Of a stretch of 32,197 bases of DNA, positions 9,010-12,538 are shown piece by piece. The position numbers and the translations under genes are program-made. The notes below the pieces were generated by a model. It ran no database searches and was not told where the DNA came from. It saw nothing but the letters and a program-made list of their open reading frames with translations. The number at the start of each line of letters is the position of its first letter. Positions within the stretch are counted from its first letter, which is position 1. The stretch is from an uncultured Balneolaceae bacterium (GTDB lineage: Bacteria; Bacteroidota; Rhodothermia; Balneolales; Balneolaceae): the NCBI GenBank assembly GCA_938091655.1, contig CALKOA010000137.1:1-32197 (forward strand), written 5' to 3'.

Positions 9010-9037
9010 GACAACAAAAAATAAATTAGCGATTTAA

Positions 9038-9361
9038 CTATTTAGACTTTTTTTGTTTGAATAGTGGATAGGTTTTAAAGAGGAAATAGCCGAAAAAAAG
9101 TAATGGATAGATTGATATAAAAAGTGCTGCCACCCGATCTCCAAACCATAACAGAGTAACTACTCCCAGAAGGAAGGTGCTAATCGCTAATGTTATGTGA
9201 GCCTGCTTAAACATCTTAAGATAAGTCTCGATATCTACCTGCTCTCTTTGCTCTTTTGGCATCGTATTATACCCAGCAAGATAGTATTTAGCGTTATCTA
9301 CAGTCAAAATAAATGCTAAGGATCCAAAAATTAGGCTTACACCGATAATAACGTATATCAT
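9038..9361 (-). CDS. Small membrane protein, DUF3784-like
   Basis: The protein has 107 aa and three likely membrane helices: residues 1-21 (IYVIIGVSLIFGSLAFIL), about 54-73 (ITLAISTFLLGVVTLLWF) and about 78-97 (ALFISIYPLLFFGYFLF). Between the first two is the segment LAGYNTMPKEQREQVDIETY, the hallmark of DUF3784 proteins (an 'AGYNTM-K-E' stretch followed by an acidic turn). The C-terminus is Lys-rich and probably cytoplasmic. It stands alone between the propeller gene and a divergent pair. The function of DUF3784 proteins is unknown. Confidence 0.65.
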   Translation of the reverse strand: MIYVIIGVSLIFGSLAFILTVDNAKYYLAGYNTMPKEQREQVDIETYLKMFKQAHITLAISTFLLGVVTLLWFGDRVAALFISIYPLLFFGYFLFKTYPLFKQKKSK

Positions 9362-9585
9362 AATAAAATTAGATTGGTGTATGTACTTAGATGTATTTTA
9401 TTGAGAAATAATACTAAAATTGTTAATTCCGTGAATGCTAAAAGCTTTAATTATGAATAATTAACAAAAATAATACGCTAACTAACTGTATGCCATTCAA
9501 CTTTCTATGAATATAGTATCTATGAGTTTTCTTTAGTTTCTTGTAGCTAACCGTTCATTCAAAACACATTAAATCAGTAACCTAT

Positions 9586-10497
9586 ATGATACACGGAACA
9601 CATAATGCACTGGAGGATTCCAGAAATGAACACATCCTTATTTCTATTAATGATGAACTTTTTCCTCGAAACGAAGCTAGGATTTCGGTTTTTGATGCGG
9701 GCTACTTGGTTGGTGATGGTGTTTGGGAAGGATTACGGCTTCATCAGGGTAGACTAGTATTTTGGGATGATCACATGGATCGTTTGTATGCCGGCGCTAA
9801 AACCATAGGTTTGGATATTGGATATAAAAGAGAAGATTTACTCAAGTCTGTTCAACATGTTTTGAATGCAAATAATATGGTGGATGGGGTTCATGTTCGA
9901 ATTATGATTACTAGGGGAATAAAAAAAACACCTAGCCAAGATCCTCGTTTAACCATTTCTGGACCAAATATTGTCATTATAGCAGAACATAAAGAAGCCG
10001 ACCCAACATCTACTAAAAATGGCATTACCCTGTTTACAAGTACCATCCGTCGAGGTTCTCCTGATTATTTGGATCCACGCTTAAATTGCCATTCGAAAAT
10101 ACACGAGGTGCAGGCACTAATCCAAGCATTAGAAGCAGGAGCTGATGAGGCACTAATGCTCGATATTCACGGTTTTGTAAGCACATGCAATGCAACCAAT
10201 TTTTTCATAGTTAAAGGCCAAGAAGTTTGGACATCCACCGGAAATTACTGCATGATGGGCATTACACGATCAAAAGTGATTGATATTTGTAGGACTAACA
10301 ATATCACGTGCAAAGAAAAAAATTTCTCACTGTTCGATGTTTATAGCGCGGATGAAGCTTTTGTAACCGGTAGTTTTGGTGGCCTAACACCTGTGACAAA
10401 AATTGATGGCCGTATTATTTCTGAACACATACCTATGCCCATAACAAAGCAATTGCAACAATTATACAAAGCACGAATAAAGTCTGAAATGTCCTAA
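9586..10497 (+). CDS. Class IV aminotransferase-like protein (plant BCAT-like fusion family) with altered active site
   Basis: The protein has 303 aa and the full class IV fold: an N-terminal block LFPRNEARISVFDAGYLVGDGVWEG, the hydrophobic strand RIMITRG (105-111), then ADEALMLDIHGFVS and MMGITRSKVIDIC. This places it with branched-chain or D-amino acid aminotransferases. Two key positions look changed. In YLDPRLNCHSKIHEV (161-175) the Schiff-base Lys of the family falls on a non-Lys residue by hand alignment; the only Lys nearby is K171. The Glu that contacts the PLP ring (E in VAEGSGxN) is Thr200 in VSTCNATN. The next gene encodes a sulfotransferase-like protein, and in plants the two domains occur in one polypeptide. 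The fold is certain, the reaction open. Confidence 0.8.
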   Translation: MIHGTHNALEDSRNEHILISINDELFPRNEARISVFDAGYLVGDGVWEGLRLHQGRLVFWDDHMDRLYAGAKTIGLDIGYKREDLLKSVQHVLNANNMVDGVHVRIMITRGIKKTPSQDPRLTISGPNIVIIAEHKEADPTSTKNGITLFTSTIRRGSPDYLDPRLNCHSKIHEVQALIQALEAGADEALMLDIHGFVSTCNATNFFIVKGQEVWTSTGNYCMMGITRSKVIDICRTNNITCKEKNFSLFDVYSADEAFVTGSFGGLTPVTKIDGRIISEHIPMPITKQLQQLYKARIKSEMS

Positions 10498-10527
10498 GTC
10501 ACTTTGTTAACTAATAATATTGTTCCT

Positions 10528-11241
10528 ATGAAACGAATTTGTCTTTGGTCTGGTCCACGTAATATATCTACCGCACTCATGTATTCATTTGGCCAGCGTA
10601 GTGACACGACCATTGTAGATGAGCCTTTGTATGCACACTATTTATGTTCTACAAGTGCTAATGAGTATCATCCAGGATCAAAAGAAGTACTTTTATCCCA
10701 GGAAAATGATGGTGAAAAAGTAGTGAAAAAGATGATAGGGGACGTCTTCCAAACACCCGTTGTTTTCTTTAAACACATGACGCATCATTTGATCAATTTA
10801 GACAGAAGTTTCTTGAAGGAAACGGAGAATATCATTTTAACGAGGGATCCAAAAGAAATGATTACTTCGTTCATTAAACAAATCCCTAATCCTGTTATTA
10901 CAGACACAGGTTATCCTCAACACTTAGAACTATATGATTACTTAGTTAATATAGGTAAACCACCGCTAATCGTAGACTCTAAAGATCTATTACTTGACCC
11001 AAAGAAAAAACTAAACGAATTATGCGCCTACCTTGAAATACCTTTTCAGGATGATATGGTAAGATGGGAGGCTGGACCAAGGAAAGAAGATGGGGTGTGG
11101 GCTAAATATTGGTACCATAATGTTCATAAATCAACAGGTTTTAGAACATATCAAGAAAAAAATGAACCCATTCCTGCGTCACTAATGTCTCTTTATGAGG
11201 AATGTGATGATATCTACAAACAACTAATCTCACAAAATTAA
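10528..11241 (+). CDS. P-loop sulfotransferase-like protein, partner of the class IV aminotransferase
   Basis: I prefer the ATG at 10528 (237 aa) to the TTG at 10504, because the fold's first strand starts right there (MKRICLWSGPRNISTALMYS). Residues 8-15 (SGPRNIST) match the phosphate-binding loop of the sulfotransferase superfamily. VVDEPLYAHYL-type sequence (here IVDEPLYAHYL, 29-39), IILTRDPKEMITSF and the C-terminal EDGVWAKYWYHNVHKSTGF are characteristic of the branch found fused to class IV aminotransferases in plants. It starts 30 bases after the upstream stop and is probably co-transcribed. Whether it transfers sulfate, using PAPS, or has another nucleotide-linked role is unknown. Confidence 0.75.
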   Translation: MKRICLWSGPRNISTALMYSFGQRSDTTIVDEPLYAHYLCSTSANEYHPGSKEVLLSQENDGEKVVKKMIGDVFQTPVVFFKHMTHHLINLDRSFLKETENIILTRDPKEMITSFIKQIPNPVITDTGYPQHLELYDYLVNIGKPPLIVDSKDLLLDPKKKLNELCAYLEIPFQDDMVRWEAGPRKEDGVWAKYWYHNVHKSTGFRTYQEKNEPIPASLMSLYEECDDIYKQLISQN

Positions 11242-11277
11242 AGGGTATTCCCCCAAATAACTTTAACGAATAATTGC

Positions 11278-11379
11278 ATGTACAAAATTAAAAAAGTCAT
11301 TCAAAAATCAGAAGGTCAAACAGACAAATTATATCAAAAATACTATTTGATAGAGTATTTAGCCTTCATGGTATGCTGA
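11278..11379 (+). CDS. Tiny ORF of 33 codons, possible leader peptide
   Basis: ATG at 11278 opens a short frame (start MYKIKKVIQKSEGQ, end LIEYLAFMVC) whose TGA overlaps the start of the next gene by 7 bases. The overlap is what suggests it may be translated and coupled; there is no recognisable domain. It could equally be chance. Confidence 0.25.
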   Translation: MYKIKKVIQKSEGQTDKLYQKYYLIEYLAFMVC

Positions 11380-11867
11380 AAAAAAGAGTCATTAAAATAG
11401 ATGAGTACAATAACAAAATAGCCTCAATTGAAGCTGAGATTCGAACCTTAGAAAAAAGGATTCAGCATGTGGTCAAGGATATTGATAAAGAGAAGATGGA
11501 TATTACCGAAATTCAACAAGAAATTAATGCCTATCGGACTAAAGTCGAATCTTTTAAAAGAAAAGATACCTTACTATATGAACCTACTTTTGATATAAGA
11601 ACCTATCAAAGAGGTAAAAATGAGTACTGGTATATAGAGGGCAGGGTGCGATTACCAATGGTGAACGGAAAGACAGGTAAAGAATTCCACACTTCTTTTG
11701 GCCGATATGAAGATGTAGTAGCTGAGTATAGAGAGCTAGATCGGGTTAGGTATAATCTTCTCGGTATTTTTACCGGGGTAAATGGTACAAAACAGAGAAA
11801 ACTCGACTATAAATTACAGAACCGCCTAACAAATGTATTAAAAGATTGGTGGTGGAATGGCATCTAA
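11373..11867 (+). CDS. Hypothetical protein with N-terminal coiled coil and possible AP2-like beta domain
   Basis: The protein has 164 aa. Residues ~8-55 are a heptad-like, charged coiled coil (KIASIEAEIRTLEKRIQHVV and onward). From about 70 there is a strand-strand-strand-helix pattern: IRTYQRG, YWYIEGRVRLP, KEFHTSFGRY, then EDVVAEYRELDRVRYNLL. That order resembles AP2/integrase arm-binding domains, which bind DNA with a three-stranded sheet. This is only a pattern match by eye, and no family is recognised. The C-terminus is Trp-rich (DWWWNGI). Composition is more AT-rich than the flanking core genes, which fits a transferred region. Alternatives are a phage or plasmid accessory protein or a lineage-specific orphan. 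Confidence 0.5.
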   Translation: MLKKRVIKIDEYNNKIASIEAEIRTLEKRIQHVVKDIDKEKMDITEIQQEINAYRTKVESFKRKDTLLYEPTFDIRTYQRGKNEYWYIEGRVRLPMVNGKTGKEFHTSFGRYEDVVAEYRELDRVRYNLLGIFTGVNGTKQRKLDYKLQNRLTNVLKDWWWNGI

Positions 11868-11885
11868 TCTACAAAGCAGTTAATT

Positions 11886-12140
11886 CTACTTAATCAGCAG
11901 CATTTTATTGGTTTGTGTATAAGTAGGTATTGTTAACTTGTACAGATACAATCCACTAGATAAATCCTTGGCATCAAAATTAACGGTATGATACCCTGCC
12001 GCTTGTTGACCATTAACCAGCTCTACTACTTTCTGACCCACACTATTAAAGATTTCCAATGTCACATGAGACGCTTGTGGAAGGACGTACTGTATTTGAG
12101 TAGACGGGTTAAATGGGTTGGGGTAATTTTGAAAAAGCAA
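11886..12140 (-). pseudogene. Orphan type IX secretion C-terminal sorting domain (gene remnant)
   Basis: The frame gives a complete C-terminal sorting domain: LFQNYPNPFNPSTQIQYVLP, then VTLEIFNSVGQKV, GYHTVNFDAKDLSSGLYLYKL and a final KMLLIK. Such domains (about 80 residues) sit at the end of large secreted proteins of Bacteroidota and relatives. Here nothing precedes it: a stop codon lies on the minus strand at 12165-12167, nine codons upstream of the TTG, and no passenger protein is readable further up. It is therefore most likely the tail of a lost cargo gene, cut off by deletion or insertion. Its upstream end now overlaps the likely promoter region of the rightward lipoprotein gene. Confidence 0.75.
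12124..12131 (+). promoter_or_regulatory. Possible Bacteroidota -7 promoter box for the lipoprotein gene
   Basis: TAATTTTG matches TAnnTTTG and lies 35 bases before the ATG at 12167. The nearest upstream TTTG (12095-12098) is 25 bases away, longer than the usual 19-21, so support is weak. Confidence 0.25.
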
Positions 12141-12166
12141 TAAATAAAAGTATACGTGTTTATATC

Positions 12167-12538
12167 ATGGGAAAGCTGAAATACCTATTCATTTTTGTGC
12201 TAATAAATATAGTCTTCACTAGTTGTATTGTTCCTAGTTACATTAGTTACGACGATACAAGAAGAGAGCCTAAAGCCGAAAATTTTTTGGTCAAGGTCTA
12301 CAACCAAGATCAATTAAATGTAAATGACTATAAAATCATTGGCGAAATTTCTGTGGAAGGATGTAGCTGTGAAATAGAAAAAATGCTCAAAGAAATTAAA
12401 AACACCGTAAAAGAAGTAGGTGGCGAGGCGATAATGGATCTGAGTTTAGATGAAGGTGTTGGCGGCAAGATAAGTTCGGATACGTACCTTATTTCTGGAA
12501 AGGTTATCGTTTTTATCAAAAATAAGGTGGTGCAATGA
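12167..12538 (+). CDS. Small lipoprotein of unknown function
   Basis: I chose the ATG at 12167 (123 aa) because it gives a clean lipoprotein leader, MGKLKYLFIFVLINIVFTSC, with Cys20 as the lipidation site. The longer frame from 12113 starts inside the sorting-domain remnant and is unlikely. The mature part has a strand NVNDYKIIGEISVEG, a CSCE turn with two Cys, a helix MLKEIKNTVKEVGGEAIMDL, and a final strand TYLISGKVIVFIKN. A strand-helix-strand with 'GGEAI' resembles the RcsF/YbjQ-type fold, but that is speculation. Its TGA overlaps the ATG of the next small gene (ATGA), so the two are coupled. Product localisation is probably the cell envelope. Confidence 0.6.
   Translation: MGKLKYLFIFVLINIVFTSCIVPSYISYDDTRREPKAENFLVKVYNQDQLNVNDYKIIGEISVEGCSCEIEKMLKEIKNTVKEVGGEAIMDLSLDEGVGGKISSDTYLISGKVIVFIKNKVVQ

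Follow-up and report, generated by a model that had tools for sequence, protein, structure and literature searches.

The window, that is, the whole 32,197-nucleotide stretch that was analysed, contains two adjacent genes on its forward strand. The first one (9586..10497, +) encodes a 303-residue aminotransferase-like protein, hereafter AT-like protein, which has the domain and the fold of class IV (fold type IV; PF01063 Aminotran_4, 1e-44 in Pfam) and lacks the catalytic lysine. Its scores against the NCBIfam equivalogs for branched-chain and D-amino-acid transaminases are below cut-off (best 240 bits versus 363). The second gene (10528..11241, +) encodes a sulfotransferase-like protein (PF19798 Sulfotransfer_5, 6e-41; 140.7 bits versus a gathering cut-off of 23.2 in Pfam) that has no match among NCBIfam models. 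Its probable start is the ATG at 10528, with a TTG at 10504 as the alternative; counted from the ATG, 30 nt separate the two genes. Both open reading frames, their strand, the residue patterns quoted in the original prediction and, from the ATG start, the 30-base gap were found as described there.

The pair is accessory in its genus, where it occurs in one of nine genomes, that of the window. It lies in a segment (9012..12263) that a congener (G249) lacks: only about 220 bp are found there at the corresponding site, whose two flanks are collinear with the window. Besides the pair, these 3.25 kb contain a DUF3784 gene and an open reading frame for a 164-residue coiled-coil protein. The 9012-12263 stretch has a lower GC content than the window (42.5%), that of the pair being 36-39%. 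Contamination of the assembly was considered and is unlikely: the contig also carries gpsA, which shares 96-97% identity with its congeneric counterparts, and the flanks of the segment are collinear with G249.

Conservation of the gene pair

Full-length PF19798 proteins were found in 34 of 247 genomes of the same phylum and the AT-like protein, counted as present at E<=1e-40, in 38 of them. All 34 sulfotransferase genomes have the AT-like protein (Fisher p=1e-37, a value that overstates independence, the genomes being related). The four genomes with the AT-like protein only belong to one family (f8), and no sulfotransferase was detected in them even at E<=10. A 61-residue sulfotransferase remnant (G108:C2:970153-970341), probably a recent loss, was observed in a genome devoid of the AT-like protein.

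Next, 85,000 species genomes were scanned with the sulfotransferase profile as the only seed; the best 80 loci are described here (at least 80 exist). They are distributed among Planctomycetota, Acidobacteriota, Gemmatimonadota, Verrucomicrobiota, Armatimonadota, Pseudomonadota, Rhodothermota, Chloroflexota, Actinomycetota and Neomarinimicrobiota, together with one archaeal MAG. The latter carries an Asn-type pair (see below) on a contig labelled Candidatus Thalassarchaeum (L157), possibly an archaeal occurrence or a binning error. An AT-like gene is present on the same locus in 73 of these best 80 loci, across about 10 other phyla, and on the same strand in 72; the median intergenic gap is 17 nt. 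For four of the seven unpaired loci (L096, L097, L103, L129), the AT-like gene is elsewhere in the genome. The genomes of the three others (L119, L152, L164) yielded only a class IV protein with the lysine, and two of these loci (L119, L152) stop at a contig edge. A search seeded from the AT-like side gave a similar picture in Planctomycetota, whose species may overlap with those of the best 80 loci: the AT-like protein occurs in 28 of 199 genomes, well separated by score from ordinary class IV proteins (>=395 versus <=293 bits), and the sulfotransferase gene adjoins it in 21 of the 28. The possibility that the two genes are unlinked elsewhere, which would have spoken against the original prediction, is thus clearly contradicted, such adjacency (73 of the best 80 loci, 21/28) being far above chance.

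A neighbourhood search of the pair loci revealed no other neighbour recurring across phyla. Therefore, the conserved unit consists of two genes. A scan of viral sequences showed no relatives. The original prediction also held that the two genes are fused in plants, Arabidopsis At3g05190 and At5g27410, annotated as branched-chain-amino-acid aminotransferase-like, being said there to carry both domains in one chain with the sulfotransferase first. In prokaryotes, fusion was seen in none of 125 pairs. Overall, the two genes form a real and widely conserved functional pair.

Not every PF19798 protein belongs to it. Those found on plasmids of Dolichospermum and Streptomyces (L188, L189) were examined as candidate members and set aside: they are about 30% identical, and the two regions read have no AT-like partner. 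Their genes sit near cysC or cysD, and the Streptomyces one adjoins adenylation-domain genes. They are likely other sulfotransferases, of a natural-product type.

The aminotransferase-like protein

In an alignment with solved branched-chain aminotransferases, Asn167 of the AT-like protein (codon 10084..10086, +) falls opposite their internal-aldimine lysine, the residue through which ordinary class IV aminotransferases bind PLP as a Schiff base. Among 130 readable module copies, two truncated and unreadable ones being left out, 97 have a His at this column and 33 an Asn; Lys does not occur. The 23 ordinary class IV controls, mostly other family members from the same genomes, all have Lys there. 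A displacement of the lysine along the strand, by two residues, was looked for and rejected, that column being K/R/N/T and not conserved as Lys. We conclude that the AT-like protein is very probably not a conventional transaminase; judging from the aligned residues, neither version is at all likely to perform ordinary transamination, the Asn version least of all.

The AT-like tree splits cleanly into a His type and an Asn type, and the residue tracks gene order: the sulfotransferase gene comes first in 89/89 His-type pairs and the AT-like gene in 33/33 Asn-type pairs. The window pair is of the Asn type, with the AT-like gene first, which is opposite to the order stated for plants; the latter, if the fusion is real, matches that of the His-type module. 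Sulfotransferase and AT-like distances are correlated within the His set and the Asn set (r 0.88 and 0.95, respectively) and less so overall (0.53). These matched branch lengths within types, together with co-occurrence, adjacency and common strand, uphold the linkage that was initially claimed. In a quick tree, a single clade of Asn-linked sulfotransferases was rejected (AU p=0.005). Therefore, AT-like partner type and sulfotransferase lineage have recombined at least once, which suggests that the His and Asn types can replace each other.

The site that holds the PLP phosphate has been retained. Its arginine R66 (codon 9781..9783, +) is invariant in module copies as well as in ordinary controls, the G225-I-T-R228 loop (10258..10269, +) is present, and position 263 is kept as Thr/Ser. 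The ring contacts differ between types. The glutamate facing the pyridine nitrogen is kept in the His type (85/85), as the only one of the two contacts; in the Asn type it is replaced by Thr/Ser (37/37), and the tyrosine contacting O3' by Lys/Arg. Accordingly, the window protein shows Thr200 at the Glu column and Lys171 at the Tyr column, and has neither PLP-ring contact. Because these two columns differ, the chemistries of the Asn and His types may not be identical.

In addition, eight residues, W47, H103, K113, T115, E134, K136, N202 and C222, are invariant in 122/122 AT-like proteins, and none of them is the residue conserved in ordinary relatives. H103 (9892..9894, +; 122/122 module proteins) is mostly Tyr in the latter. 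K113 (9922..9924, +) and K136 (9991..9993, +), the second of which is located two residues past the new invariant E134, are new invariant lysines (131/131). From E. coli IlvE, several of the new invariant columns presumably line the substrate pocket. An intact phosphate cup and several newly invariant pocket positions argue, at the level of sequence, that the AT-like protein has been repurposed rather than left to decay.

The closest structure is that of an aminotransferase-like protein from Variovorax paradoxus (7Z79; 51-53% identity, model TM-score 0.91-0.94), which also has an Asn, N174, at the catalytic-lysine position. The title of entry 9J32 names the N174K mutant of this "aminotransferase-like protein", the mutated residue corresponding to N167 in the window. 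Likewise, K113, K136 and H103 correspond to K120, K143 and H110 of the Variovorax protein. Archaeal branched-chain aminotransferases (5MQZ, 5CM0, 5E25; about 36% identity) and E. coli IlvE resemble the AT-like protein in fold, phosphate cup and overall alignment. Unlike it, they possess the Schiff-base lysine and the ring-contact Tyr and Glu, and they have none of the new invariant residues. In the literature searched, we found no function for the Variovorax 7Z79 protein and nothing describing At3g05190/At5g27410, 7Z79/9J32, N174K or a lysine-less fold type IV protein with respect to the pair.

The sulfotransferase partner

The sulfotransferase shows two PAPS-type motifs, PRNxST and R-x7-S, the expected holders of the 5'-phosphosulfate and of the 3'-phosphate. 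SGPRNIST (10549..10572, +) is the candidate 5'-phosphosulfate-binding loop, and RDPKEMITS (R114 to S122; 10843..10869, +) the candidate 3'-phosphate-binding motif. P18, R19, S22, T23, R114 and S122 are invariant in 45 sequences. The motif register is backed by the CurM alignment, in which the first motif falls only within a sub-threshold stretch.

Profile searches match the protein to CurM (7e-9) and to olefin synthase (1.4e-6). Among PDB folds, its AlphaFold model (mean pLDDT 93) comes closest to the sulfotransferase domains of CurM and of olefin synthase, and to TPST2 with PAP. By profile and fold, the closest solved relatives are therefore CurM (4GBM) and the olefin-synthase domain (4GOX). 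They share the LVRHP/LIRDP..S region with the window protein, at about 15% identity, but are domains of polyketide synthases, whereas the latter is free-standing, with about 240 residues. PF19798 itself appears in two papers of the literature searched, as a search model or list entry only, and no described function was found there.

APS kinase makes PAPS. Of the 34 genomes with the sulfotransferase, 32 encode it, compared with 56 of the 213 others (p=2e-14); in the family to which the window belongs, the figures are 20/22 with the sulfotransferase and 2/8 without it (p=0.001). In one genus (g2), it occurs in 3/3 genomes with the pair and 0/5 without. The genome that contains the window, a 90%-complete draft assembly, yielded no APS kinase, and the co-occurrence may reflect only sulfate assimilation. 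PAPS is probably the sulfuryl donor.

Possible joint reaction

Given the conserved pairing, it is reasonable to infer a shared, undescribed reaction, as the original prediction did, and both proteins probably act on one substrate or pathway. Our preferred reading, to which we give about an even chance, is a two-protein module for small-molecule modification, in which the sulfotransferase and the lysine-free AT-like protein would perform joint chemistry. With PAPS as donor, the sulfotransferase would sulfonate a small metabolite. The same metabolite, or its phosphorylated precursor, would be bound by the AT-like protein through the retained cup; the old PLP-phosphate site could then hold a phosphate-bearing or otherwise anionic ligand. 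The AT-like protein would carry out a step adjacent to sulfonation without an internal aldimine, the new His, Lys and Glu residues providing acid-base chemistry. In a more specific form, the sulfonated product would undergo elimination or substitution on the class IV fold, which is capable of lyase chemistry. This form is put forward because the nearest solved sulfotransferases are CurM and olefin synthase. These enzymes turn a hydroxyl into a leaving group by sulfonating it. By analogy, sulfate might leave in the present case too, which we regard as rather doubtful.

Retention of the phosphate cup (R66, GITR, T/S263) could also mean that the AT-like protein is still a B6 enzyme, with PMP or PLP bound non-covalently and the replacement residue, His, acting as base. 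PMP-dependent sugar dehydratases such as ColD and E1, which are of fold type I, have a His in place of the aminotransferase Lys. The pyridine-nitrogen Glu kept in all 85 His-type proteins is in line with this idea. However, the Asn type, to which the window protein belongs, has no base at that position and has lost both the Glu (Thr/Ser in 37/37) and the Tyr (Lys/Arg), yet it still partners the same sulfotransferase family. We consider such a B6 enzyme unlikely.

With the catalytic lysine gone, a strict partnership and mostly short intergenic gaps, the AT-like protein could instead be a pseudoenzyme, serving the sulfotransferase as a substrate-binding or regulatory subunit without catalysis of its own. 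This is quite improbable: new invariant polar residues within the substrate region and close to it speak for catalysis or for a tightly recognised ligand, and the protein is present without the sulfotransferase in the four f8 genomes. The latter observation, made in a single family, is also a counterpoint to a shared reaction, and the AT-like protein may act alone.

K113 and K136, invariant in 131/131 proteins and different from the residue conserved in ordinary relatives, raise the question of an ordinary PLP enzyme whose Schiff base has moved to one of them. The K/R/N/T column two residues before the old lysine rules out a near shift along the strand, and the Asn type also lacks the Glu and Tyr contacts with the PLP ring, which makes a relocated lysine very doubtful. 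Finally, a conventional class IV aminotransferase coupled to a sulfotransferase, as first envisaged, agrees with family and fold and with the below-cut-off matches to BCAT and D-amino-acid transaminase models, but the Schiff-base lysine is absent from 130/130 readable module copies, which deprives the proposed amino-group-linked sulfation of its chief support and makes this reading hardly credible.

The joint action of a sulfotransferase and a lysine-free AT-like protein can be extended, tentatively and with somewhat less assurance than the module itself, to an undescribed two-step reaction that would be widespread in bacteria and perhaps fused in plants. It would combine a PAPS sulfotransferase with a fold-type-IV enzyme having a new lysine-free active site, for which His and Asn would be interchangeable alternatives, each tied to one gene order. 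If this is true, fold type IV would gain a lysine-free member and PF19798 a biological role. Family members match branched-chain or D-amino-acid transaminase models, so that such an annotation is likely, yet the function is very unlikely because the lysine is missing; labels such as "branched-chain aminotransferase" conceal a probable two-protein reaction. Strict pairing offers a testable handle, with one substrate, two proteins and a solved relative (7Z79), and confirmation of the plant fusion would bring a plant reverse-genetics system.

The four f8 genomes with the AT-like protein only (G085, G183, G239, G242; loci L086, L091, L092) include one Asn-type and at least two His-type proteins. 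At L091 and L092, the neighbours of the AT-like gene resemble a permease and a metallophosphoesterase.
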